The notes under the pieces are model-generated. The model had not been told where the DNA came from, did no database searches, and saw nothing but the letters and a program-made list of their open reading frames with translations. A DNA stretch of 64,000 bases. Origin: Methylocapsa aurea (GTDB lineage Bacteria > Pseudomonadota > Alphaproteobacteria > Rhizobiales > Beijerinckiaceae). The position numbers and the translations under genes were made by a program. The DNA lies in assembly GCF_000746085.1 (NCBI RefSeq), contig NZ_KN050805.1:62001-126000 (forward strand), in the 5' to 3' direction. This document shows, piece by piece, positions 8,640-53,422 of this stretch (its first letter is position 1; each line of letters opens with the position of its first letter).

Positions 8640-9317
8640 TTAGTTCGGGACCGATGTCTTGTGCCGCTGCGAACGAATATAGGCGGCCGCGTCGCCAACG
8701 TCGGGCTGATCCTTTGGCGCTTCGGCGGCGGTGGCTTTCACTGCGGCGGTCGCCTTCCGGTACCCCGGCGGCGGTTCAGTCAGATACTTGCGCGGCGGTT
8801 CGACGCCAGGCGTGAGGGTCTCAGGCTGTCCGCCTCCAACGACGGCTTGCAGGGCCTTCCAGGGCGCATAAAGACAAATTGGCGTGCCCGAACTCGCCTG
8901 ACATTCGCTGGCGGGCCCCTCGGTCGGCAAATCGCCGCGGCCGCGCTGCAATTCCGCCTGGGTGAGTTCCGCGCGGGCATTTTCCATAAGTTGCGGCGCG
9001 GGCCGCTGCGATTCGAGCGCCGCCCGGCGCCTTTCCGCAATATCGGGATCGGCTGGCCATGATGGGTCGCGCACGGCCTCTTTCGGCGGGGGCAGATCCA
9101 ATTTGGGCGGAAGAACAATTGGCGGCCGGGCGCGATAATCGATCGATTCCTTTTCCTTGTCGAACTGCAGTCCGACGAAGCCGAGAACCGAATTGAAGGG
9201 ATTGGTGTCCTCCTGGGCCCTGGCCGGCAAAGAGCCGATCAGCCCCGAGGCGACAAGCACGCCAGCCGCGGCCATCAGAACGGCCCGCCCGCCGGGTTGA
9301 ATTTTGTCGAAGACCAT
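8640..9317 (-). CDS. Exported protein of unknown function (225 aa)
   Basis: The start is ATG 9317 (MVFDKIQPGG), nine bases after GAGG. An upstream in-frame ATG at 9326 sits too close to that site. A hydrophobic signal segment (AVLMAAAGVLVASGLIGSL) ends at PARAQ, so export is likely. The mature part is proline-rich with polar segments, including the blocks NPFNSVLGFVGLQFDKE and PPIVLPPKLDLPPP, and ends in alanine-rich low complexity. One cysteine pair (ECQASSGTPIC) could form a disulfide. I do not recognise a domain. It lies downstream of lspA on the same strand with about 205 bp between. Confidence 0.75.
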   Translation of the reverse strand: MVFDKIQPGGRAVLMAAAGVLVASGLIGSLPARAQEDTNPFNSVLGFVGLQFDKEKESIDYRARPPIVLPPKLDLPPPKEAVRDPSWPADPDIAERRRAALESQRPAPQLMENARAELTQAELQRGRGDLPTEGPASECQASSGTPICLYAPWKALQAVVGGGQPETLTPGVEPPRKYLTEPPPGYRKATAAVKATAAEAPKDQPDVGDAAAYIRSQRHKTSVPN

Positions 9318-9522
9318 GACGTCCATCCTCTTCAAATCTCGCGGGCGAAAGCCGGCCTCCGCAAAGCCGCGAGTCTTTTTGCCGACCCCGCCCAAATCCT
9401 TGCCGCGCCCATAAACTTTGGCAAGCCCGCGCGTGACGCAAAGGTAGCGATAACGGCCATTTTAGGTAACTTCGCGGCAATTTGACGGCAGAGCGGGCGC
9501 CGAGACAGTTTTCCAAACATCT

Positions 9523-10029
9523 TTATTGGCCGGCGGCGCGCTCCGGCTCGCTGGCCTTGCCGGCCAAAAACACGGATTCATAAAGCAGAAGCGCGACGCC
9601 GACGACAATCGCGACATCGGCGAAATTAAAGACGTACCAGGAAAAGGAGCCAAGGTGAAAATGATAGAAATCGGCGACGAACCCATAGGCGAGCCGGTCA
9701 TAGGCATTGCCGAGCGCGCCGCCGACGATAAGGCCCAGCCCAAGGCCGACGGTCTTGGTTCTGGCCCTCCAGAGCCAGAGGCCGAGGAGCGCCGTCGCCG
9801 CAACTGTTAGCGCCAGCAGGCCGTAACGCTCCATATCGGTGCGCGCACTGAGGAGCGAATAGGAAATCCCAGGATTCTTGGCGAAAATCACGTCGAAAAA
9901 GGGCGTCAGCCGCACCGGCTGGCGCGCTTCGATTCCATAGATAAAAATAAGCCAAAGCTTGTTGGCCTGATCCACCGCGAGAGTCGCCAGGACGGCCAGC
10001 GCGCCCAAGATCCGCGGCGTCATAGCCAT
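9523..10029 (-). CDS. lspA: Lipoprotein signal peptidase (signal peptidase II)
   Basis: LspA is the inner-membrane aspartyl protease that cleaves prolipoproteins after lipidation. The 168-residue protein has four hydrophobic segments and the family blocks: VDQANKLW near the first segment, [26 protein letters not shown] (first catalytic Asp in N-x-x-D-R) and [11 protein letters not shown] (second catalytic Asp). The start at 10029 (MAMTPRIL) follows AGGGCG and overlaps the 3' end of ileS. An alternative ATG at 10023 forms ATGA with the ileS stop. Either way the two genes are translationally coupled, a common ileS-lspA arrangement. Confidence 0.96.
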
Positions 10030-37167: not shown

Positions 37168-37866
37168 TCATGCGCGCGTAGCGAGATCCGCGCCGGTCAA
37201 TCGGCCATCGTGCAGCGCAGAAGCAACGAGAACGCCGTGGATGCCTGCTTGCGTCAGACGGCTGAGATCCGAAGGACCGCGAAGGCCGCCCGCCGCATAG
37301 ACCATGGAATCCGGCGCGCGGCGCTTGAGGGCGCCGAGGCGATCGAGATCCGGGCCGGCGTCGCCGCCGACGCGCGCAAGATCCATGACAATGACGCGCC
37401 GTGGCCACAAATGCTTTGCATCGCAGAGCGCCTCGGGACCAAGAAACCTCTGCCCGCAAAAGTCGAGCGAGAGAATGATCCGCTCATCGCCGCCAAGGTC
37501 CTCAAGCGGCGCAAGGCTATGCAGGGTTTCGCTTCCAAGAACAAGATGGGCGCGCGGATGGCGCGCGAGCCATGCACGCGCTTCCTCCGTATGACTGACG
37601 CCTGCGTCGACCCAAAATGTCACGGCGGGAAAGGCCTCGCTCAGCGCCGCGAGGCTTCGTTCCTGCCCGCCGCGCGATTCGATCGCATCGAGGTCAGCCA
37701 CATAGAGCGTGTGAAAAGGATGAACGCTCAAAAGCCCGGAGACGACGTCGAGGGGCGCGCTTGTTTGCGCCAGCGGCGTAACGATTGGCGCATAGGAGTC
37801 GCGGCGGCCAAGACGGGCGCGGACCACGGCGCCCTGTTTCAGATCGATCACTGGTATGACATCCAT
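37168..37866 (-). CDS. HisA-like TIM-barrel protein of the H4MPT island
   Basis: A 232-residue protein of the HisA/HisF barrel group. It starts MDVIPVIDLKQGAVVRARLG, matching the ProFAR isomerase N-terminus with the catalytic Asp at residue 8. A second Asp falls in IILSLDF at residue 135, near the other HisA catalytic Asp. The C-terminal phosphate site reads YAAGGLRGPSDL and GVLVASALHDG. It is not the histidine-pathway gene by context: no his genes are near, and it sits between fae and the MfnF-like gene, where methylotroph islands carry a HisA-related unknown (COG1411-type). Its reaction is unknown. Confidence 0.82.
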   Translation of the reverse strand: MDVIPVIDLKQGAVVRARLGRRDSYAPIVTPLAQTSAPLDVVSGLLSVHPFHTLYVADLDAIESRGGQERSLAALSEAFPAVTFWVDAGVSHTEEARAWLARHPRAHLVLGSETLHSLAPLEDLGGDERIILSLDFCGQRFLGPEALCDAKHLWPRRVIVMDLARVGGDAGPDLDRLGALKRRAPDSMVYAAGGLRGPSDLSRLTQAGIHGVLVASALHDGRLTGADLATRA

Positions 37867-37995: not shown

Positions 37996-38119
37996 AGAGC
38001 CGGATGACTTCGGATGGAATCGCAGCGCGATTCCATCCGAAGCCTTAAATCCGCCTCTCATCAATGAGTTAGAGCATGATGCCGAAAACCGGTTTCCACT
38101 TTTCGGCATCATGCTCTAG
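37996..38119. repeat. Dispersed two-hairpin palindromic element (A type, copy 2)
   Basis: The first hairpin (38006-38044) has left arm GACTTCGGATGGAATCGC and right arm GCGATTCCATCCGAAGCC. The linker CCGCCTCTCATCAATGAGTT differs by one base from copy 1. The second hairpin, 38071-38117, is identical to 4621-4667. It ends just before the MfnF-like gene and may act on its transcript. Confidence 0.9.
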
Positions 38120-38144
38120 CAAAAGGGTCTGCTGGATTCTCCAC

Positions 38145-39182
38145 ATGCAAATAATCATCGGATGGGACATCGGCGGCGCGCATCTCAAAGCCGCCCGCGC
38201 GGAAGACGGAATCATCACCCATGCCGCGCAAGTCCCCTCCCCGCTTTGGCTCGGCCTGGAGGAACTTGATTGCGCTTTTGCGCAGGCGCAAGCGATCGTC
38301 GGTCGAGCTCCCCTCAACGCGATCACGATGACAGGTGAATTATGCGACGCCTTCGCAACCCGCGAAGAGGGCGTCGTTGGGCTCGCCGGCGCAGCGGAGC
38401 GTTTGCTGGCGCCCGGCGCCGTGTGGTTTTACGCCGGGCGTTCGGGCTTTGTCGGCGCGCCCGAAATCGCGGCTCATGCATCCGACATCGCATCCGCCAA
38501 TTGGCATGCAAGCGCGGCGCTGAGCGGCCATCGCGCGCCCCAGGCCCTCTTCATCGACATGGGCTCGAGCACGACAGACATCATTCCCATTGCCGGAAGC
38601 CGGCCCGCCGCGCTGGGCTATGCCGACGCGGCTCGGCTCGGCCATGGCGAACTGGTCTATACCGGCCTCGTGCGAACATTCCTGATGGCTGGTCCGAAGC
38701 TCGTTCCGTTCGCTGGGCAATGGACGCCGTTGATGAATGAATGGTTCGCCGATATGGCGGACGTCCATCGCATTCTTGGGCAATTGCCTGCGGGCGCCGA
38801 TTTGACCGACACGGCCGACGGCCGCGAGAAAACGGCGGCGGCTTCCCGCGCGCGGCTGGCCCGGATGATCGGACGCGACAGTTGCGAGGCTGACGCCGCC
38901 GCATGGGACAGGCTGGCGCGTTTTTTCGCCGAAGCGCAATTGCGCGAGATCATGGACGCCGCCGCTCTTGTTCTGTCGCGCAGCATTCTTGACGCCGGCG
39001 CCCCCATTGTCGGCGCCGGCGTCGGACGCGGCGTCATCCGCCAAATCGCGCATCGATTTGAGCGGCCCTTCGTTGCTTTCGACGAATTGATCGAGGCCCT
39101 CCCGGAGGCGCGGAGCAAAGCCTGCGATTGCGCGCCGGCCTGCGCCGCAGCGCTTGTGGCGGCGGCTCAATTCTCCGCATAA
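38145..39182 (+). CDS. MfnF-like ASKHA-family protein (methylofuran biosynthesis)
   Basis: A 345-residue member of COG1548. The phosphate-binding motifs of the acetate-kinase/Hsp70/hydantoinase fold are visible as IIGWDIGGAHLKAARAEDG and LFIDMGSSTTDIIPIAGS. In archaea MfnF condenses the aminomethylfuran with gamma-glutamyltyramine; in methylotrophs this protein is annotated as an H4MPT-linked C1 transfer protein and probably acts in methylofuran synthesis. A C-terminal cysteine cluster (CDCAPAC) could bind metal. ATG 38145 is chosen because the longer frame reads through the A-type repeat. It overlaps the DUF447 gene tail-to-tail by 16 bases. Confidence 0.82.
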   Translation: MQIIIGWDIGGAHLKAARAEDGIITHAAQVPSPLWLGLEELDCAFAQAQAIVGRAPLNAITMTGELCDAFATREEGVVGLAGAAERLLAPGAVWFYAGRSGFVGAPEIAAHASDIASANWHASAALSGHRAPQALFIDMGSSTTDIIPIAGSRPAALGYADAARLGHGELVYTGLVRTFLMAGPKLVPFAGQWTPLMNEWFADMADVHRILGQLPAGADLTDTADGREKTAAASRARLARMIGRDSCEADAAAWDRLARFFAEAQLREIMDAAALVLSRSILDAGAPIVGAGVGRGVIRQIAHRFERPFVAFDELIEALPEARSKACDCAPACAAALVAAAQFSA

Positions 39183-39724
39183 AAGGACTGGCGTTTCTGC
39201 ATGAGCCAGGACCAGGCCTCGCGCTCTGCCGGCCCCGCCGTCTTCTCGATCGCGATGGCCAGATAGGCGATTTCATGATCGACCTTCTCGCGCGGCAGCA
39301 TATGCAAACGCGTAATCAGGATGGCGCATTCGAGGACCGCATTGCGGGCGCGATTGAACCCTTCGAAAGGCGCATGGCTTTCCATATGCAGAACCTTGCA
39401 ATGGAAGCGCGGACGCTCCGGATGCTCATCAACGCGGACCACGGCGAGTTCGGCATGGGCGAGAGCCGCGGCCAGACGCGGCGGAGGCGCCTTGACCGCC
39501 GGGATAAGCGGCCAGTCGCGCCGACCGGTGACGAGGCCCGCGAAAATACGCGGATCATCGCTGTAATTGGCGGTCGCAAATGGAACGCTCAAGAGATTGT
39601 CCAGCGTCGTCGAGGGACGAAACGGCGCGAGGACCCATCCCTCCGCCTCCTCGATGAGGCCGAGGGGGGCGAGATGCGCTCTACCCGACGCATCGATGGT
39701 GGTGACGATGGTTTCGCGGATCAT
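39167..39724 (-). CDS. DUF447 family protein (H4MPT island)
   Basis: A 185-residue protein of the flavin-reductase-like DUF447 group. Blocks: MIRETIVTTIDASGRAHLAP, then GWVLAPFRPSTTLDNLL, FATANYSDDPRIFAGLVTG and FNRARNAVLECAILITRLH. The family is found in methanogens and in methylotrophs with H4MPT. Its split-barrel fold suggests flavin binding, but no reaction is known. It is the last gene of the minus-strand run, 90 bases after the dihydropteroate-synthase-like gene. Confidence 0.82.
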   Translation of the reverse strand: MIRETIVTTIDASGRAHLAPLGLIEEAEGWVLAPFRPSTTLDNLLSVPFATANYSDDPRIFAGLVTGRRDWPLIPAVKAPPPRLAAALAHAELAVVRVDEHPERPRFHCKVLHMESHAPFEGFNRARNAVLECAILITRLHMLPREKVDHEIAYLAIAIEKTAGPAEREAWSWLMQKRQSFYAEN

Positions 39725-39814: not shown

Positions 39815-41209
39815 TCACTCACGGACCTTGCCGCGCAGCGTGTGGCCCGCTTCGCGCAGACGGTTCTTATCTTCTTCAGGCCGATCGGCTCCACAGCCCC
39901 AGTCGAGCGGCTCGTCCTGCGCGTAGCGCTTGCCGAGCGCAAAGGCGATCTCGGCCTTGGCGAGCTCGGCGCCGAGATAGAAGGCATGGGCGCCATCCGC
40001 CTCGACGCCAAGTTTGGGAAATAATGAAAAGGCGTCGCGCGCCACATGGTGACCCTCGCGATTGAAAATATGCAGCCCATCCTCGGCGGTCGCAATCCGA
40101 AAACTTGCGTCCCGCACTTCCTCCGCCATCTCCTCGATCTCCCGCCGCGATGACGGATAGGGCGCGCGATCGTGAAGCTGCAGGAGCCCCGCGTCATAGC
40201 CCTTGGGCGTGGCGCCGTCTGCGGCGGCCGCCAGCATGAGGCGGCGCGCGGCGTCATGCTCCTGGAGCGTGCGGCGCGTATGCGGACTGACCTGGACGGT
40301 GAGCACATTGCGGATCGCCAGCTCCGAACAAAGTCCGATCAGCACGGCGGTGACGCCGCCCGAATCCGCTTCGGTCAATTCGGTGAGATTGCCGGTGCCC
40401 ATCATCATCTCAGCTTGAGGAAGGCGGCGCCGGGTTTCGACATAACGCGCCAGCGAAGCGGCGAAGCCGAAATGAATCGGGTCGAGAATGGGATCGACGA
40501 TGTAGGAAAGCCCGCGTTGCTCGGCGAGATGCGCGGCGCGCACCAGGGAGTCGATGTCGCCATGCGGCGAGGGTACAAGAATTGGAGTTGCTCCAGAGCC
40601 GGCGGCGATGTCGAGGCTGCTCTCATCAAGGCTCAGGAGAAAATCGGCGCCAGCCCCTGCCCCCCGCGCAAGTTCGCCCGGATCGGCGGAATCGACGCTG
40701 ACTCTGTGGCCCGCCGACTTCAAGGCCCGGATGGAGTCTTCAAGGCCGGGAAAGGGCGTATCGGGCAGACAACCGACATCGATTACATCGGCGCCGGCCT
40801 TGCGCATGCCATCCGCGCGGGCGAGCAAAGCCTCGATCGACAGCGCGGGAGCATCGATGATCTCGGCGAAAATCCGAATGTCGTAACGCGATAAATCCCT
40901 GGCCTGCCCACCCCGCCCGAGATAGGCGGGGAGATCGCTCAATTCATCCGGCCCGCGCATGACCGGCGCATTGAGCGCGCTCGAGAGCCGGGCGAGATCG
41001 GCGCGGCAGCGGCCCGGCAGAATGATGCGGTCCGCTCCAACGGGCCGCGGCAAGCGGCGCAGGATGATCGCTTCCGTCATCAAGGCGGCGACTTTGACGC
41101 CGATATCGCAAACCTCCCAGCTGAAAGGGGTCTCGCCCAAGGACCGCAACAGCCTGTCGAGGCGCGGATAGGCGAGATGACCGGTGAGGAACAGAAAGCG
41201 CTCGCTCAT
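39815..41209 (-). CDS. Dihydropteroate-synthase-like protein (DUF6513/pterin-binding)
   Basis: A 464-residue protein. An N-terminal domain of about 110 residues (MSERFLFLTGHLAYPRLDRL) precedes a pterin-binding TIM barrel: RIFAEIIDAPALSIEALLAR, GADVIDVGCLPDTPFPG, HRVSVDSADPGELARGAG, SYIVDPILDPIHFGF and EMMMGTGNLTELTEADS. The blocks DVGC and TGNLTELTEADS replace those of ordinary FolP. Archaeal relatives (MJ0107-like) are thought to join the pterin to beta-RFA-phosphate, which FolP cannot do. It overlaps the flavoprotein gene upstream (ATGA) and is the likely H4MPT counterpart of folP at 52 kb. Confidence 0.85.
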   Translation of the reverse strand: MSERFLFLTGHLAYPRLDRLLRSLGETPFSWEVCDIGVKVAALMTEAIILRRLPRPVGADRIILPGRCRADLARLSSALNAPVMRGPDELSDLPAYLGRGGQARDLSRYDIRIFAEIIDAPALSIEALLARADGMRKAGADVIDVGCLPDTPFPGLEDSIRALKSAGHRVSVDSADPGELARGAGAGADFLLSLDESSLDIAAGSGATPILVPSPHGDIDSLVRAAHLAEQRGLSYIVDPILDPIHFGFAASLARYVETRRRLPQAEMMMGTGNLTELTEADSGGVTAVLIGLCSELAIRNVLTVQVSPHTRRTLQEHDAARRLMLAAAADGATPKGYDAGLLQLHDRAPYPSSRREIEEMAEEVRDASFRIATAEDGLHIFNREGHHVARDAFSLFPKLGVEADGAHAFYLGAELAKAEIAFALGKRYAQDEPLDWGCGADRPEEDKNRLREAGHTLRGKVRE

Positions 41210-41754
41210 GGCGCCGGCAATTCGCTCCGGCGGCGGGCGATAAACTCTTTCAGGTCGCTCAGGCTCTCGGCCACGCTTGTCTCATCAAAGCTTTTGAGCT
41301 TCTCGAAATTCTCGAGGTCGATCTTGCGCGGAAACACCTTCACCATTCCCTTGGGGGAACGCGTTTCGAGCTCCGGCGCGGTGTCGCACGCGAAAACAAT
41401 GGTTGGGACGCGGCACTTGCCAGCCTGGGCGAAAACATTACTGGCGAGATTGTCGGAAATTCCATAGACGAATTTGGCGACGCTGTTCGACGTCGCGGGC
41501 GCGACGACGAGCGTATGGTAGACGCCATGATAGAAATAGCCGACCTGCGGCGAACTCGCGGCGGTGTCGCTGAAAACGCGGGCTGATTTCGGCAGGTCGA
41601 GTTTCTGCTTATACATGCGCAGCACTTCCGCCGCCGCCTTGCTGACGAAGACGTCGACATTCTCCAACTCGCGCACGAGATCCAGGCATTCGTTAAAGAA
41701 ATGACCGGACCCGGTCAGCGCCCAGCCCCAGCGCGGGGTGACGACATTGCTCAT
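41206..41754 (-). CDS. DmrB/AfpA-like flavoprotein (dihydromethanopterin reductase family)
   Basis: A 182-residue flavodoxin-like flavoprotein. The FMN-binding loop lies at WGWALTGSGHFFNECLDLV. The blocks VVAPATSNSVAKFVYGISDN and VPTIVFACDT match the archaeal flavoprotein family whose member DmrB reduces dihydromethanopterin. In Methylobacterium the reductase step is done by DmrA and an AfpA homologue is also present, so the exact role here is inferred. ATG 41754; overlaps the next gene by four bases (ATGA) and follows mfnE by 33 bp. Confidence 0.85.
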   Translation of the reverse strand: MSNVVTPRWGWALTGSGHFFNECLDLVRELENVDVFVSKAAAEVLRMYKQKLDLPKSARVFSDTAASSPQVGYFYHGVYHTLVVAPATSNSVAKFVYGISDNLASNVFAQAGKCRVPTIVFACDTAPELETRSPKGMVKVFPRKIDLENFEKLKSFDETSVAESLSDLKEFIARRRSELPAP

Positions 41755-41787: not shown

Positions 41788-42402
41788 CTAAGGAAGCGCA
41801 ACGCCCGCGCCCGGCATGCCGCCACGCTGCAAGATCTCCGCGGCGCCGGCAAGCGACGCCGGACCGGCGAGCCAGACCTCGGCTTTGCTCTGCGCGGCGA
41901 AATGCGGGAACAGCGGATCGACAATTTGCTCGGCGGCGAGTTCCCGGGCGGACGCTCCGCCGATCGCATCGCGCGATTTGATGAGGAGAAGGCGGCGCGC
42001 CCCATAGACTCCGGCGAGCCAGGCCGCGAGCGAATCCGAGGTCGCCTCCCAGGAGGCGGGCACTTCCAAAGCGCCAAGCACCATCTCGGATGGCAACCAG
42101 ATCGGAATTTTTCCAGCGTTCAATGCGTCGTCCATTTCGCAGCGGGAGGCCGCCAAAGCGAATGCATCCGAATGCGCGCCGAGCGCGATGGCGAATTGCT
42201 CCATCGCCAGAAGCGCCATGCGATGGGCCGCGACGTCGTCAAATCCGATCGCCTCTTGGGCGCAACGCACGCCAATCGCGAAAGGGCCGCCGCCTGGAAC
42301 GAGGATAAAGGGCCCCCCCCAGGAGAGCAGCGCTTTGAGCCAGGCTTCGCGTTGCGGCGAATGCGCGAGGCTGCCGCCGAATTTGACGATGGCGGCGCTC
42401 AA
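41788..42402 (-). CDS. MfnE-like amino acid kinase family protein (methylofuran biosynthesis)
   Basis: A 204-residue small amino-acid-kinase-fold protein. Blocks: AIVKFGGSLAHSPQREAW (the K-x-G-G-S start), FILVPGGGPFA (nucleotide or substrate loop), then GARRLLLIKSRDAIGG. MfnE of methanogens phosphorylates aminomethylfuran phosphate to the pyrophosphate used for coupling by MfnF. This homologue lies beside mfnB and near the MfnF-like gene, which fits the same route. It starts with TTG 42402, overlapping the mfnB-folB stop (TTGA); the RBS is weak. Confidence 0.82.
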   Translation of the reverse strand: MSAAIVKFGGSLAHSPQREAWLKALLSWGGPFILVPGGGPFAIGVRCAQEAIGFDDVAAHRMALLAMEQFAIALGAHSDAFALAASRCEMDDALNAGKIPIWLPSEMVLGALEVPASWEATSDSLAAWLAGVYGARRLLLIKSRDAIGGASARELAAEQIVDPLFPHFAAQSKAEVWLAGPASLAGAAEILQRGGMPGAGVALP

Positions 42403-43595
42403 TGATTTCTCGGACCTCTCGGATTTCTCACGCCGCCAGCCGCTTCCGACAGGCTCGGAAAAAGCTGATCGACAGCGCCCGCTTCAATCGCCCGCTCGCG
42501 TTTGATCTCGACGCCAACCTTGCCGCAAATCACGTCGAGCTTTTCGATGCGCACGCAAATCCGCAAGACGCTCGGGTGCCGCAGAACCGAATCCGCGAGT
42601 TCCCTCGCCAGGGTTTCGATCAATTCGACATGGCCCCGGCCTAGGATGATCTTGATCGCGTCGACGATGAGGTCATAGGAAAAAATATCGCGCATATCGT
42701 CGGAGTGATGCTGATTGCGCCGGACATCGACGTCGACGTTGAACCGCACATTCTGTTGCAGGCCGCGTTCGAAATCATAGGCGCCGATGGAGCATGGCAT
42801 GACGAGATCATGCACGAAGACTCTATCGGTCTCGGTCGAACGCTCTTGCGTTGCGGTATAGCCGCGTCCCAAAAAGCGCCAATCGACCCGCGGCTCGCCG
42901 GGGGCCGCCTGGCTGTCGGCTTCCTGCGGAATAAGATCCCGGATCATCCGCACCGAGGCCGCGTCGATCCCGGCCTCACGCGAGCGGCCGAGGCACAAGG
43001 ACCCGCGAAATCCGAGATAATTCGGCTGCAGCGGAAGCAGCCGCGGCACGTCGGGCGCCTCCAGCGACCCAGCGAGGCCCGAGATCAGTCCAGCCTCCCG
43101 GCAGCGATCGAGAAAGCCGGCCAGCGCGGCGACATCCATATGATCGAGAAGACGCCTCTCGCCTTTTGTCGCCGTATCGAGCATGGCGCCCATGAAGCCA
43201 TGCTTGGCCATCAGCCGCACGAGATCGAGGTCAGGCGCGCGATCTGCGAAAAGAACGCCGACGAGCTTCACTTCGCCCGCAAGGAGGTCCAACGCGCGAA
43301 TGCACTCGGCTCCGCCTTTGTCCGATGGAAAGCCGACCTTGACATAGTCGACCCCAGTCGCGGCGATTGTCGCGACCGCCTCGACCGCCGCCTCCGGCGA
43401 TGCGAACCGGTCGCCGGCCGTCGCGCTGACCCGCCGGCGTTTGCCGACCGCGCGGACAATATCGGCGACGAGGCGGGGGTCGAGCGCGCCAAGCGCTCCC
43501 TTCGCCGGATCTTTCAGATCGATGATGTCGGCGCCGCCGGCCCAAACCGCTTCCGCCTCGGCAGGGTTGGTTACACTCGCGAGCATCAAAGCCAT
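42399..43595 (-). CDS. Fusion: (5-formylfuran-3-yl)methyl phosphate synthase + dihydroneopterin aldolase
   Basis: A 398-residue two-domain protein. Residues 1-222 match MfnB (DUF556), which makes the furan of methanofuran from two glyceraldehyde 3-phosphates. Lysines and aspartates fall where the archaeal enzyme uses them: D26/K28 in DIIDLKDPAKGALGALD, K86 in DYVKVGFP, and D140/K144 in MLDTATKG. Residues 255-370 match FolB: GAYDFERGLQQNVRFNVDV with E276, VELIETLARELAD with E327, and GKVGVEIKR with K359. ATG 43595 follows AAGGA. A roughly 30-residue linker joins the domains. The gene overlaps mfnE by four bases. Confidence 0.88.
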   Translation of the reverse strand: MALMLASVTNPAEAEAVWAGGADIIDLKDPAKGALGALDPRLVADIVRAVGKRRRVSATAGDRFASPEAAVEAVATIAATGVDYVKVGFPSDKGGAECIRALDLLAGEVKLVGVLFADRAPDLDLVRLMAKHGFMGAMLDTATKGERRLLDHMDVAALAGFLDRCREAGLISGLAGSLEAPDVPRLLPLQPNYLGFRGSLCLGRSREAGIDAASVRMIRDLIPQEADSQAAPGEPRVDWRFLGRGYTATQERSTETDRVFVHDLVMPCSIGAYDFERGLQQNVRFNVDVDVRRNQHHSDDMRDIFSYDLIVDAIKIILGRGHVELIETLARELADSVLRHPSVLRICVRIEKLDVICGKVGVEIKRERAIEAGAVDQLFPSLSEAAGGVRNPRGPRNH

Positions 43596-43874
43596 TATGG
43601 CGCATCCTTGGGTGGCGTTGGCGAAAGGGTCAGGCGCCCGATCAGCCGAACTCAGGCGTTGCGGACGCAAGCATCCGGGCGAAGGCGGCGCAAGCGCAAC
43701 GACCGCCGCGCCGCGAATGTGGGGCGGCGCGAAAGAGGCTTTTGATGACTTGCCTTTGGAATCGCCGCGCTCCGGCGCATAAACCCGCGCCGATGCTCAA
43801 AGCCGCTGATATATTTTGGCGATAAATATAGGCTTGGGGCCGCAATTGCAATTGCGCCAAAGCGGCGGGCGCGT

Positions 43875-44717
43875 TCATGTTTCCTCGATCCGGGCGGCGA
43901 TCAGCCCGCGCAGCCGCTCCAGCGCGCCGCCGGCCCGCCGGCGCAGCGGCGCGCCATTGCAGGACCCCGCCGCAGCGGCGCCGCGGACGCTGTTGGTGAG
44001 AAAAACCTCATCCGCCGCGGCTATATCTGCTTCCTCGAGCGAAGCCTCCACCGGCGTCAACCCAACCTGGTTCGCCAAGGAGAGCGCGAGCGCTCGCATG
44101 GCGCCAGGCAATGCGCCATCGGAAACCGGCGGCGTTTCCAAACGTCCCTCGCGAATAAGGAAAAGGTTGGCGATGGTCGCGCAGGCGACCGCGCCGCGCG
44201 TATTGAGCATCAAGGCCTCATCGGCGCCATGCGCCCGCGCTTCCTCAAGGGCGATCAGATTGTCGAGATAGGGCAGCGCCTTGATGCGCGAGACCGGCGA
44301 GAACTCGTTGCGCCGGGTCCTCCTCGCGATATGGAGCGAAAGCGGAGAGTCGCGCGGCGCCGGCATCGGCGCCAGCGTCATTAGAAGGGTTGGATGCGGA
44401 GCGCCGGGCGGGGCGAGGCCGCGCGGACCCGCGCCGCGGGTCACCGTGACCCGGAGAATGGCGCTGTCTGCCGCCTCGGCCGAAAGATAGGAGGCGACAT
44501 CCGCCCGAAGCCTGCCGAGATCGACCGCCTGCGCGAAATCCAGAACCTTCAAGCCGGATGCTAGCCGCTCCAGATGCGCGTCAAGATCGAAGGCCCGGCC
44601 GTTCCGCACCCGCATCGTCTCGAACACGCCGTCGCCGAGCAGGAAGCCGCGATCGGCGATCGCAACATGCGCTTCCTCCGGCGCGCAAAGCTTTCCGCCC
44701 AGCCACGCCCGCATCAT
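43875..44717 (-). CDS. pabC: Aminodeoxychorismate lyase (class IV aminotransferase fold)
   Basis: PabC removes pyruvate from 4-amino-4-deoxychorismate to give p-aminobenzoate. The 280-residue protein has PLP-enzyme class IV motifs: VAIADRGFLLGDGVFETMR, the PLP lysine in VSRIKALPYLDNLIALEEA, and ACATIANLFLIREGRL and TNSVRG at the end. PabC is preferred over D-amino-acid or branched-chain aminotransferase because pabA and pabB overlap it directly. ATG 44717 overlaps the pabA stop (ATGA). 279 bp separate it from the mfnB fusion gene, so that run could have its own promoter. Confidence 0.85.
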   Translation of the reverse strand: MMRAWLGGKLCAPEEAHVAIADRGFLLGDGVFETMRVRNGRAFDLDAHLERLASGLKVLDFAQAVDLGRLRADVASYLSAEAADSAILRVTVTRGAGPRGLAPPGAPHPTLLMTLAPMPAPRDSPLSLHIARRTRRNEFSPVSRIKALPYLDNLIALEEARAHGADEALMLNTRGAVACATIANLFLIREGRLETPPVSDGALPGAMRALALSLANQVGLTPVEASLEEADIAAADEVFLTNSVRGAAAAGSCNGAPLRRRAGGALERLRGLIAARIEET

Positions 44718-45277
44718 TGCCGCCCAATGAACCCCAGGAAATTTTGCAGCAAGCGATGCCCTTGCTCGGTGAGGATCGATTCAGGATGAAACTGAACGCC
44801 GAAAGTTGGATGTTCGCGATGTTGCAAAGCCATGATCTCGCCCTCCGGAGACCATGCCGTCGCGGCGAGTTGGCGTTGATCCTCGTCAAGCTCGACGATC
44901 AACGAATGATACCGGCCGACGCTCAACGGATTTGGCAGGCCTTGGAGAATGCCGGAAGCCTCGTGCCGCACCAGGCTCGCCTCGCCATGCATCGGGCGCG
45001 CGGCGCGCACGACGCGCCCGCCGAAAACCTGGCCGATGCATTGATGGCCAAGGCAAATGCCGAGGATCGGCGCGCGGCCGGAATATTCGCGCACAAGCTG
45101 ATTGGATGCTCCCGCCTCGTTGGGCGTGCAGGGTCCGGGCGAAATCACGATGGCTTGCGGGCTCTCGCGCGGCAGGGCCGCGTCATTGCGCACCACCACG
45201 GGCGTCGCGCCGAGTTCGCGCAAATAATTGGCGATCGTGTGAACAAACGAATCGTAATTGTCGATGACGAGGATCAT
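44714..45277 (-). CDS. pabA: Aminodeoxychorismate synthase glutaminase subunit
   Basis: A 187-residue class I glutamine amidotransferase. It starts MILVIDNYDSFVHTIANYL (typical PabA/TrpG). The nucleophile Cys is in PILGICLGHQCIGQVFGG, and the partner His lies in FGVQFHPESILTEQG. It supplies ammonia to PabB. The length and the surrounding pabB and pabC make it PabA, although such subunits can also serve TrpE. Overlaps pabB and pabC by four bases on each side. Confidence 0.93.
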   Translation of the reverse strand: MILVIDNYDSFVHTIANYLRELGATPVVVRNDAALPRESPQAIVISPGPCTPNEAGASNQLVREYSGRAPILGICLGHQCIGQVFGGRVVRAARPMHGEASLVRHEASGILQGLPNPLSVGRYHSLIVELDEDQRQLAATAWSPEGEIMALQHREHPTFGVQFHPESILTEQGHRLLQNFLGFIGRQ

Positions 45278-46638
45278 CGGGCCAACTCGGTGGCGCCGAA
45301 GGCCTCGAAGATCCGCCGCGCCTTGTCGAGCGTTTCTTCATATTCGGCCGCGGGATCGGATGCCGTGACGATTCCCCCGCCGGCCTGCACGACGCAAGCG
45401 CCGCCGCGAAAGCTCGCGGTGCGGATGACGATGTTCAAATCCATCGTTCCATTGAATCCGAGATAGCCGATGGCGCCGCAATAAGGGCCGCGCGCATGGC
45501 CCTCCAGCTCCGAGATGATCTCCATCGCGCGAACCTTCGGCGCGCCGGTAATGGAGCCGCCGGGAAAGGCCGCGGCCAGGACATCGACGGCCCTCTCCCC
45601 CTCGCGCAGACGCCCGACGACAGAGGAGACAAGATGATGGACGGTGGCGAAGGACTCGAGGCCGCAAAGCTGCGGAACCTGCACCGAGCCGGGCAGGCAC
45701 ACTTTCGAAAGATCGTTGCGCAGCAGATCGACGATCATGACATTCTCGGCGCGATCCTTGCGGCTTTCTTTCAGCGCCTGCCCTTGCAGGCTGTCGAGAA
45801 CCCCATCGGCGAAGCGGGGCCGCGTGCCCTTGATCGGCCGCGTCTCGACGCGATCGCCAACGACCTTCAAGAACCGCTCGGGCGAGGCCGAGGCGATGAC
45901 GAAATCGGCGTGGTCGAGATAGGCGGCGAAAGGAGCGGGATTGACCTTGCGCAACCGCCGGTAAAATCCGAAATGATCGAAATCCGGCGGCGCCGCGGCT
46001 TCGAATCGCTGCGACAGATTTGCCTGGAAGATGTCGCCCGCGAGGATGCGCTCGATGACTTCGCTGACCGCGCGCTCATAGCCCTCCCGGGTGAAATTGC
46101 TGGTCCAGCCTTCAAGGGAAAGCTGTCCCATTCCTCGCGAAGCGGCGGGACGCTTGAGCTCCGCTTCGAACCACTGCCCGCGCTCGATCGCGCGGCGCTC
46201 GCGCGCCGCCGGCTCCTTTTCAGGAAGCCCGGTCGAAAGAATCCAAGCGCGGCGCTCGACGCGGTCGAACGCGACGACCACGTCAAAGAGCCCAAGAGAA
46301 AGATCGGGAAAGGCGAGATCGTCCAAAGCGGGCTTTGGCAGCCGCTCCAGACTGCGGCCAAGTTCATAGGAAAACAGCCCCGCCGCTCCGCCCTGAAACG
46401 GCGGCAGGCCAGGCGCGGAAGGCAATTGATGCTCCGCCAGGACGGATTTCAACCGCGAGATCCAGTCGCGATCGGTTTCGCGTCCCTTGACCCGCGCGAA
46501 TGGATCGGCTGCGATAAAACTGTAGCGGCCGAGATTTGGATCGGCCATCGCGCTGTCGAGAAAGGTCAGGAACGGGAGATGGCTGAGCGCATGCGCCGCG
46601 TCGGCTGGATCGCAAGAATTGATTTCGATGACATGCAT
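45274..46638 (-). CDS. pabB: Aminodeoxychorismate synthase component I
   Basis: PabB aminates chorismate to 4-amino-4-deoxychorismate. The 454-residue protein has FSYELGRSLERLPKPA, the chorismate site IIDLLRND-type block (VMIVDLLRNDLSKV), and TRPIKGTRPRF. The lysine of PIKGT is the PabB-specific residue; TrpE has Ala there. FPGGSITGAPKVRAMEII and YCGAIGYLGFNG follow. ATG 46638 (MHVIEINSC) is chosen over an upstream frame with no family sequence; AGGCAGG precedes it. First gene of the minus-strand run, feeding pABA to both H4MPT and folate. Confidence 0.94.
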   Translation of the reverse strand: MHVIEINSCDPADAAHALSHLPFLTFLDSAMADPNLGRYSFIAADPFARVKGRETDRDWISRLKSVLAEHQLPSAPGLPPFQGGAAGLFSYELGRSLERLPKPALDDLAFPDLSLGLFDVVVAFDRVERRAWILSTGLPEKEPAARERRAIERGQWFEAELKRPAASRGMGQLSLEGWTSNFTREGYERAVSEVIERILAGDIFQANLSQRFEAAAPPDFDHFGFYRRLRKVNPAPFAAYLDHADFVIASASPERFLKVVGDRVETRPIKGTRPRFADGVLDSLQGQALKESRKDRAENVMIVDLLRNDLSKVCLPGSVQVPQLCGLESFATVHHLVSSVVGRLREGERAVDVLAAAFPGGSITGAPKVRAMEIISELEGHARGPYCGAIGYLGFNGTMDLNIVIRTASFRGGACVVQAGGGIVTASDPAAEYEETLDKARRIFEAFGATELAR

Positions 46639-46805
46639 TGACCTGCCTCTGAAACGTGATCCAACCTTGTCGAGAACCTCCACGTTCTTTATCGCGTTGC
46701 TTGCGGGACACGGCCTTTGGACCACCGTGACGGACCATTGAATCCCCGCGGGCTGAGCCGGAGCCCCTGCATGTCCAGGATCCGAGGCTTGCTCCCAGCC
46801 CCCGG

Positions 46806-52077: not shown

Positions 52078-52893
52078 ATGATCGAACGCCGCGACCGGTT
52101 CCTCGGACTCCTTGGCGCGCGCTCCGTCATCATGGGCATCTTGAATGTCACGCCGGATTCCTTCTCCGACGGCGGCAAGTTCCAAAGCCTTGACGCCGCC
52201 ATAAGCCAAGCGAAGAAGCTCGCCGCCGACGGGGCCGACATCATCGACGTCGGCGCGGAATCGACGCGCCCGGGACATACGCCAATATCCGAAGACGAGG
52301 AGCTTGCCCGGCTCGAACCCGTTCTTGGCCAATTGACGGCCGGCGTCGACGCGCCCTTTTCGATCGACACCTCCAAGGCCCGCGTCGCGCGCCGCGCCGC
52401 CGAACTTGGCGTCAGCGTCGTCAACGACGTCTGGGGCCTGCAGAAGGACCCCGCCATGGCCGATGTCGTCGCCGAAACCGGCGCCGCCGTGGTGGTCATG
52501 CATAATCGCGACGACGTCGATCCCGATCTCGACATCATCGCGGATATGCGCCGGTTTTTCGATGAGTCGCTGCGTCTTGCCGACAAGGCGGGGATTCCGC
52601 GTCATCGCGTCATGCTCGATCCGGGCATTGGGTTCGGCAAGACCCGGGCCCAGAATCTCGACGCCTTGAGGCGTCTTGCCGGCCTGAAGGACTTCGGCTT
52701 GCCGATCCTCGTCGGCGTCTCGCGCAAATCGCTGTTCGGCGAGCTTCTCTCAGCCTCGGTCGAGACCCGCCTCATCGGCACGCTCGCCGCCAATCTTACC
52801 GCCGCCGCCAAAGGCGCCTCGATATTCCGCGTTCACGATGCGGCGGAACATCTTGCCGCTTTCAAGGTTTTCGATGCCATCGAACGCGCCTGA
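52078..52893 (+). CDS. folP: Dihydropteroate synthase
   Basis: FolP joins pABA to hydroxymethyl-dihydropterin pyrophosphate for folate. The 271-residue protein has the two classic signatures: MGILNVTPDSFSDGGKFQS near residue 19 and GADIIDVGAESTRPGHTPIS. VVNDVWGLQKDPAMADVVAE and LDPGIGFGKT also match. It lies 28 bp after fhcC on the same strand, so a common transcript is likely. The start ATG 52078 has no strong RBS. It overlaps folK by 20 bases. Confidence 0.96.
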   Translation: MIERRDRFLGLLGARSVIMGILNVTPDSFSDGGKFQSLDAAISQAKKLAADGADIIDVGAESTRPGHTPISEDEELARLEPVLGQLTAGVDAPFSIDTSKARVARRAAELGVSVVNDVWGLQKDPAMADVVAETGAAVVVMHNRDDVDPDLDIIADMRRFFDESLRLADKAGIPRHRVMLDPGIGFGKTRAQNLDALRRLAGLKDFGLPILVGVSRKSLFGELLSASVETRLIGTLAANLTAAAKGASIFRVHDAAEHLAAFKVFDAIERA

Positions 52894-53422
52894 CCTCCAG
52901 GGCGCCGGCCCGTTGACGGAAACCGGTCTGGGCCTCGGCAGCAATATCGGCGACAAGCCAGGCAATATTTTGCGGGCGCTCGCCCTGCTTCAGGAACGCG
53001 GCGTCATTCGCGTGACCGCAATTTCATCCATGTACCGCACGCCGCCTTGGGGTTATGTCGATCAGGATTTCTTCGCCAATGCCTGCGCCTTGGGAGAGAC
53101 TCGCCTCGGCCCGCTCGAGCTTCTGGCCGCGACCAATGCCGTCGAACGCGATATGGGCCGCCAGACTTCGGTGCGCTGGGGGCCACGTCTGATCGACATC
53201 GATATTCTCTTCCATGGCGACGCGCCATTCGAAACGGCGCAGTTGAAATTGCCGCACAAAGATCTTTTCGAACGCGCTTTCGTGCTGACTCCCCTGGCCG
53301 AGATCGCGCCTGACCTGCACCTCCTCGGCCGCTCCGTCAAGGAGGCCGCCGCTCGTTTCGCCGAAGAGCCGCTGGAGAAATGGACGCCGGAGGACAACAA
53401 GACGGCGCCATCCGATCCCTGA
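52874..53422 (+). CDS. folK: 2-amino-4-hydroxy-6-hydroxymethyldihydropteridine pyrophosphokinase
   Basis: HPPK activates the pterin for FolP. The 182-residue protein has the conserved LGLGSNIGDKPGNI start, SSMYRTPPWGYVDQDFFANA, and the signature RWGPRLIDIDILFHGD followed by LPHKDLFERAFVLTPLAEI. ATG 52874 gives the family-length N-terminus and overlaps folP. Last gene of the fhc-fol run; FolB, the remaining enzyme of this branch, is supplied by the mfnB-folB fusion on the other strand. Confidence 0.94.
   Translation: MPSNAPDLQGAGPLTETGLGLGSNIGDKPGNILRALALLQERGVIRVTAISSMYRTPPWGYVDQDFFANACALGETRLGPLELLAATNAVERDMGRQTSVRWGPRLIDIDILFHGDAPFETAQLKLPHKDLFERAFVLTPLAEIAPDLHLLGRSVKEAAARFAEEPLEKWTPEDNKTAPSDP

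Follow-up and report, generated by a model that had tools for sequence, protein, structure and literature searches.

The window, a 64,000-nucleotide stretch of Methylocapsa aurea DNA, carries a gene in which MfnB and FolB are fused in one frame. We estimate at about 80% the probability that its product is a bifunctional protein, the FolB half of which has replaced the folB of the folate operon and supplies the pterin shared by dephospho-H4MPT and folate. At the sensitivity of the search, no FolB other than the fused domain turned up in this genome; this point, like the folate role, was absent from an earlier sequence-only reading of the locus. The fusion is real, conserved, widespread and present in public records, and in most of the owners examined (30/40 named genomes, 7/7 in the order survey and 4/5 further genomes) it seems, as far as sequences can tell, to be the only dihydroneopterin aldolase (DHNA).

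The fused gene, its domains and its surroundings

The sequence-only reading had described a single frame with an MfnB-like and then a FolB-like domain, and had proposed a domain search. The translation, Pfam and AlphaFold2/Foldseek bear this out: both PF04476 (E 2e-66, 224.5 bits vs. a cut-off of 22.4) and PF02152 (E 5.3e-21, 75.7 bits vs. 31.8) are above the Pfam cut-offs. The coordinates of the gene, its domains and its neighbours are given in Table 1.

Table 1. Features of the fusion gene and of the surrounding genes, in positions of the window
Feature	Positions	Strand	Basis or remark
HisA/HisF-family gene	37168-37866		same family as Orf17
mfnF-like gene	38076..39182	+	TIGR03123 above cut-off, MfnF equivalog below
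DUF447 protein	39167..39724	-	family scan
dihydropteroate-synthase (DHPS)-like protein	39815..41209	-	TIGR00284 below its cut-off; DUF6513
flavoprotein, AfpA/DmrB-like, candidate dihydromethanopterin reductase	41206..41754	-	below AfpA/DmrB model cut-offs
mfnE-like kinase	41788..42402	-	below MfnE equivalog cut-off; start overlaps fusion stop by 4 bases
mfnB-folB fusion gene	42399..43595	-	398 aa/codons, ATG start, uninterrupted translation
FolB domain PF02152, residues 259-365	42501..42821	-	G271, E276, Q281, Y307, E327, K352, Leu353
linker, residues 227-252	42840..42917	-	pLDDT <50
MfnB domain PF04476, residues 4-218	42942..43586	-	D26, K28, K86, D140, K144; Pfam, Foldseek, alignment
class IV aminotransferase, PabC-like (aminodeoxychorismate lyase) or candidate MfnC	43875..44717	-	family scan
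pabA-like glutamine amidotransferase	44714..45277	-	family scan
pabB-like gene	45274..46725	-	by eye: translation and position
folP	52078..52893	+	start picked by eye
folK	52874..53422	+	start picked by eye; overlaps folP

A longer frame is possible from the TTG at 43670 in the list of open reading frames; the Met chosen as start is the first residue in four of five aligned relatives, the range of the fifth having been cut by the analyst. Sequencing error does not explain the join, as 43 further aligned sequences, 41-76% identical to that of the window, also have the frame unbroken. Among the best 80 of 387 loci, the closest named relatives come from Methylocapsa acidiphila (76% identity) and Methylocapsa palsarum (72%).

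The AlphaFold2 model, computed from a 44-row alignment, has a mean pLDDT of 84.3 and a pTM of 0.81. Its two domains, a barrel and a T-fold, are both predicted with confidence, unlike the linker between them and the tail from residue 371 on. With Foldseek, the best solved match of the first half is MJ1099/MfnB (4rc1, E 7.9e-19), while the second half matches dihydroneopterin aldolases, e.g. 3v9o (E 3.8e-10, TM 0.84 by target), and thus has the T-fold of the solved DHNAs. The sequence alone led phmmer to the same two structures (4rc1, E 1.1e-22 for the MfnB half; 3v9o, E 7.3e-12 for the FolB half).

The rows of this alignment are the window's own sequence, 38 sequences taken from the 80 loci L072-L151 and five fusions of the order survey. 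Throughout these 44 fused sequences, the MfnB positions D26, K28, K86, D140 and K144 and the FolB positions G271, E276, Q281, Y307, E327 and K352 are invariant. The family lysines and aspartates of MfnB and the Glu and Lys of FolB pointed out in the sequence-only reading are thus unvarying at all positions tested, and the loss of the key FolB residues in all relatives, which that reading had considered, is contradicted (44/44). D26, K28, K86, D140 and K144 stand at the catalytic Lys and Asp positions of MfnB, the MfnB half having been aligned to 4rc1. Of the MJ1099 residues, K155 has been termed catalytic (PMC11365854, excerpt). G271, E276 and Q281 form the GxxxxExxxxQ motif of known DHNAs (PMC2229834, excerpt), which, together with the active-site Tyr, Glu and Lys, is also kept in 10/10 FolBs encoded adjacent to mfnB. 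The titles of Foldseek matches name the solved variants Tyr53Phe and Lys98Ala, which suggests that one Tyr and one Lys have been studied as active-site residues; in our reading of the alignment, these would correspond to Y307 and K352 of the fusion.

As for the family models, the MfnB half passed NF002576 (314.4 vs. 297 bits), which NCBIfam names "hypothetical protein", and scored below the NCBIfam (5-formylfuran-3-yl)methyl phosphate synthase equivalogs NF002575 (118 vs. 304 bits) and NF002573 (108.8 vs. 341 bits). The FolB half passed the domain model TIGR00526 (57 vs. 45.05 bits) and scored below TIGR00525, the NCBIfam dihydroneopterin aldolase equivalog (55.1 vs. 72.15 bits). Both domains look catalytically intact.

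In order of transcription come pabB, pabA and the PabC-like aminotransferase, then, about 280 bases on, the fusion, the mfnE-like kinase, the AfpA/DmrB-like flavoprotein and the DHPS-like protein and, after about 90 bases more, the DUF447 gene. The placing of the fusion gene in a methylofuran/H4MPT operon, beside mfnE-like, AfpA/DmrB-like and DHPS-like genes, is supported. Among the 80 fused loci, some of which end at contig edges, neighbours matched mfnE in 72, the DHPS-like protein in 76, DUF447 in 73, the flavoprotein in 67 and mfnF in 57. In Methylorubrum extorquens, Orf22, Orf21 and Orf9 have been matched to MfnB, MfnE and MfnF, and Orf17 is required for methylofuran (PMC8141765, excerpt).

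The pab genes are not a general part of the fusion unit, pabA, pabB and pabC being matched in 7/80, 6/80 and 5/80 loci, all within L072-L079, the nearest relatives. pABA is a precursor common to folate and H4MPT, and the pabB, pabA and PabC-like genes (43875-46725, minus strand) lie just upstream of the fusion; the PabC-like aminotransferase could instead be a candidate bacterial MfnC.

Distribution of FolB and of the folate genes

The FolB product is a precursor common to the folate and H4MPT routes, and the aldolase step is needed by both. The genome of the window (3.97 Mb, 34 contigs, 99.99% complete) was searched for another folB, as the sequence-only reading had advised. None was found besides the fusion, the sole PF02152 place: there were two first candidates, of which one passes at E 0.001, and no second appears at E 0.01. 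The folP-folK pair lies 8.5 kb from the fusion, and its two genes overlap, with no folB between them. Profile searches of the genome gave one folK, one folP-type match adjoining it and two folE, copies which could feed the pterin route; a second PF00809 match is a 1247-residue frame on another contig.

Concerning the PTPS-III bypass, the PTPS-III motif is ExxHGH, distinct from that of QueD (PMC5041015, excerpt). The single PTPS of the genome carries CRRLHGH, a QueD-type motif, and no ExxHGH. Because PF02152 has only one place, the folP-folK pair is without folB and the PTPS is QueD-type, the fused domain appears, on present knowledge, to be the sole candidate found for the aldolase step of folate and H4MPT synthesis; as no second folB was found, folate synthesis should depend on the FolB half as well.

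MfnB is present in 41 of the 199 genomes drawn from the order, and FolB is linked to mfnB in 17 of these, fused in seven (G000, G042, G147, G004, G055, G092 and G074) and directly downstream in ten (G001, G053, G090, G124, G152, G177, G031, G109, G140 and G191). The gene of G042 is split across two contigs, its fusion call coming from the C-terminal piece. No second FolB above the PF02152 cut-off was found in any of the 17 linked genomes, the one additional match in G001 being weak (21.8 bits). All 24 remaining MfnB genomes have an unlinked FolB, as a single match in 23, and as three matches, two of them above cut-off, in G076. In kin of the window from genus g4 of its family, no folB is linked to mfnB, and a canonical one lies in folP-folB-folK instead.

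Six of the 24 unlinked genomes (G010, G058, G095, G155, G180 and G045, the last with a gap of about 320 bases before mfnB) have mfnB right behind a canonical folP-folB-folK and in the same orientation. This arrangement reaches a similar coupling in another way; mfnB and a folB are together in 23/41 genomes by two different routes, with folK between them in six. Of nine order genomes examined that are devoid of MfnB, seven have FolB and two have none: G012 and G015 gave no PF02152 match whatsoever, so other solutions for the DHNA step may exist. A transaldolase-type protein has been proposed as a DHNA replacement (PMC1971073, excerpt).

In the phylum sample, MfnB was found in 23/397 genomes. 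The fusion occurs in five (G344, G385, G387, G492 and G552) of 14 additional MfnB genomes from this sample; G344 also has a canonical folB, while the other four are without a second folB. In two genomes of another class, G420 (L233, L241) and G422 (L234, L242, L244), the distance between mfnB and a FolB is about 5 kb or 15 kb, and there are one or two further FolB copies, which hints at a FolB dedicated to H4MPT there.

The survey of other genomes proposed in the sequence-only reading gave 387 loci related to the fusion in named genomes; in the best 80, MfnB and FolB always share a single frame (80/80), and such fusions are common in related bacteria. The owners among these best 80 include Methylocapsa, Methylocella, Methylocystis, Mesorhizobium, Phyllobacterium and Rhodopila, among others, and the fusion also occurs in rhizobia and in metagenome-derived acetobacteria. 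FolBs were counted in the genomes of 40 of the best 80 loci: the fusion is the sole FolB in 30 and is accompanied by a canonical FolB in eight, whereas Jiella endophytica has two fusions on two contigs (L145, L146) and no canonical folB, and Mesorhizobium denitrificans has the fusion and a second, lone and divergent FolB. As the named-genome set and the order survey may share genomes, their counts were not summed.

The folK loci were analysed in 30 genomes of the analyst's choice, including seven of the eight dual ones. In the latter, the canonical copy lies in folP-folB-folK (7/7). As for the linked-only genomes, folB stands beside folK in 0/23, although folK is kept in all 23; folP and folK are direct neighbours in 12/23, and there is no folP within the stretch in 11/23. 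The location of canonical copies in the folate operon follows in part from how they were defined, and the folP-folK pairs without folB are the telling part. Both states, folB kept or absent beside folK, are found in Mesorhizobium. Mesorhizobium ciceri carries both kinds of FolB.

Seven of the 30 fusion-only genomes gave no PTPS match, and the other 23 have 26 PTPS loci. The Glu at the PTPS-III position is absent from all 24 HGH-bearing loci, the two others (L266 and L267) being without the HGH motif; in L260-L265, the Cys of QueD and the Glu of PTPS-III are both missing. No PTPS-III bypass was thus found in the genome of the window or among these 24 loci.

Thirteen plasmid records from Phyllobacterium, Rhizobium and Sinorhizobium, e.g. 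NZ_CP104968.1, contain matches to at least 80% of the fusion length. On a plasmid record of Phyllobacterium sp. A18/5-2 (L273), the gene in the mfnE place after the fusion (9194-9832) is labelled "dihydroneopterin aldolase", probably a misplaced name.

Phylogeny of the linked FolB domains

The FolB tree was built by a quick method from 120 columns of 92 domains, one per locus, chosen by the analyst from 139 distinct ones, and was midpoint-rooted for drawing only, so its deep branching order is unsure. The 48 MfnB-linked FolBs (38 fused, 10 adjacent) lie on one side of a branch with an SH-aLRT of 98, apart from the 29 folK-adjacent FolBs. The residue following the catalytic Lys is Leu in all 48, vs. 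Pro in 26/29 FolBs with folK alongside and in 14/15 others. Compared with canonical FolBs of the folP-folB-folK type, the fused domain shares PF02152, the T-fold, the G-E-Q motif and the active-site Tyr, Glu and Lys, but differs in its separate clade, in Leu for Pro after the Lys, and in its linkage to mfnB, away from folP and folK.

The fused FolBs cluster together (37/38, support 97) except that of G074, which falls among the split genes of its own genus. In G074 (L010/L071), the linker is longer, and the other sampled members of the genus have split genes. Its fusion is apparently independent of the main one; as the lone f32 fusion with split nearest kin, it could be recent or an error. In the split pairs, the folB start codon overlaps the mfnB stop by 4 bases in 6/10 cases.

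On the best FolK tree, seven changes are needed in the trait of folB beside folK, FolK being short and the program giving a long-branch warning. A sign test for repeated replacement on this tree gave p 0.5 and, with two independent pairs only, is without power. The simplest history that we infer is coupling, fusion once and again once, and later losses of canonical folB.

A shared pterin supply and its alternatives

That the fusion is a frameshift or an assembly artefact, a concern already raised in the sequence-only reading, has a negligible probability. Relatives in families f2 and f32 do have two separate genes, overlapping or near, but the same frame recurs in all of the best 80 of 387 loci and in relatives at 41-76% identity, which rules this reading out for the window. 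It is also very unlikely that the FolB domain no longer catalyses the aldolase reaction or is an epimerase (FolX/monapterin-like), the fusion being then mainly an MfnB with a structural tail: the divergent score and the Pro-to-Leu change after the catalytic Lys would fit, but Glu, Tyr, Glu and Lys are unvarying in 48/48 linked FolBs, the FolX epimerase model NF008418 is not reached (24 vs. 152 bits), and the genome of the window would be left with no recognised DHNA.

A domain dedicated to dephospho-H4MPT, with the folate pterin coming from another, unrecognised DHNA or from uptake, is a less unlikely, though still improbable, alternative. The domain sits in the H4MPT operon, scores below the folB equivalog cut-off and belongs to a clade with its own signature beside the catalytic Lys, and 8/40 fusion genomes keep a canonical folB. 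Against this, no other FolB above cut-off was found in 30/40 fusion genomes and 17/17 linked order genomes, folK is kept in all 23 linked-only genomes tested (with folP adjoining in 12), the PTPS of the window's genome is QueD-type, and its single FolK makes a shared pterin pool likely. As canonical folB is kept in 8/40 fusion genomes and in G344 (1/5), the role of the fused domain may there be confined to H4MPT. The earlier proposal that FolB is adapted to the pterin of H4MPT is unsupported as stated, since the precursor is common to both routes and 24/24 unlinked MfnB genomes have an unlinked FolB; some specialisation is possible, given the Leu-after-Lys signature. The other suggestion of that reading, a balance of the two C1 carriers as the reason for the linkage, is plausible.

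According to the favoured reading, that of a bifunctional protein, the N-terminal TIM barrel would act as MfnB, converting two glyceraldehyde-3-phosphates into 4-HFC-P, the furan precursor of methylofuran, and the C-terminal T-fold domain as dihydroneopterin aldolase, converting 7,8-dihydroneopterin into 6-hydroxymethyl-7,8-dihydropterin and glycolaldehyde. The sole FolK found would activate this pterin, which two synthases would then share: FolP would use it in making folate, and the DHPS-like protein encoded in the mfn operon in making dephospho-H4MPT. Historically, a divergent folB would first have been placed beside mfnB, in many cases with a stop/start overlap; the two adjoining frames would then have fused, and the folP-folB-folK operon would have lost its original folB. 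Methylofuran, H4MPT and folate synthesis would thus meet in one polypeptide, and the gene would be needed even without methylotrophic growth. A more far-reaching picture, which we consider unlikely, is that the Leu-after-Lys FolBs make up a subfamily of their own, which on repeated occasions has taken the place of the folate-operon folB in Alphaproteobacteria, and that the fused protein acts as a physical control point, with a mixed FolB/MfnB oligomer, cross-domain sensing of furan or pterin supply, and production of methylofuran, dephospho-H4MPT and folate in set proportion.

With respect to known systems, the MfnB half resembles MJ1099 and Orf22 of Methylorubrum extorquens in PF04476, fold, catalytic residues and kind of gene neighbourhood, whereas the archaeal MfnB of 4rc1 (242 residues) is a lone domain. 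FolB is likewise joined to another enzyme in the eukaryotic folB-folK-folP and the FolK-FolB of Bifidobacterium longum, where the partner is a neighbouring folate enzyme (PMC4224340 and PMC1971073, excerpts); in contrast, the partner in the window comes from methylofuran synthesis and has no common intermediate with FolB. As with the PTPS-III bypass, the genome does without a folate-operon folB, but PTPS-III is non-homologous, and the genome of the window would rely on a FolB domain of another lineage, with a QueD-type PTPS. Among the matches listed, in open-access titles and the beginnings of abstracts, there was no description of an MfnB-FolB fusion.

Folate synthesis, an essential core vitamin route, appears in these bacteria to depend on a gene of the methylotrophy island. 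Where the fusion is named for MfnB only, as in the annotation of one record (L273), folB would look missing. If the favoured reading is true, the removal of "mfnB" in fusion bacteria would starve folate too and mislead methylofuran knock-out work, and the fusion offers a clean test case of whether one fused FolB serves two pterin coenzymes.
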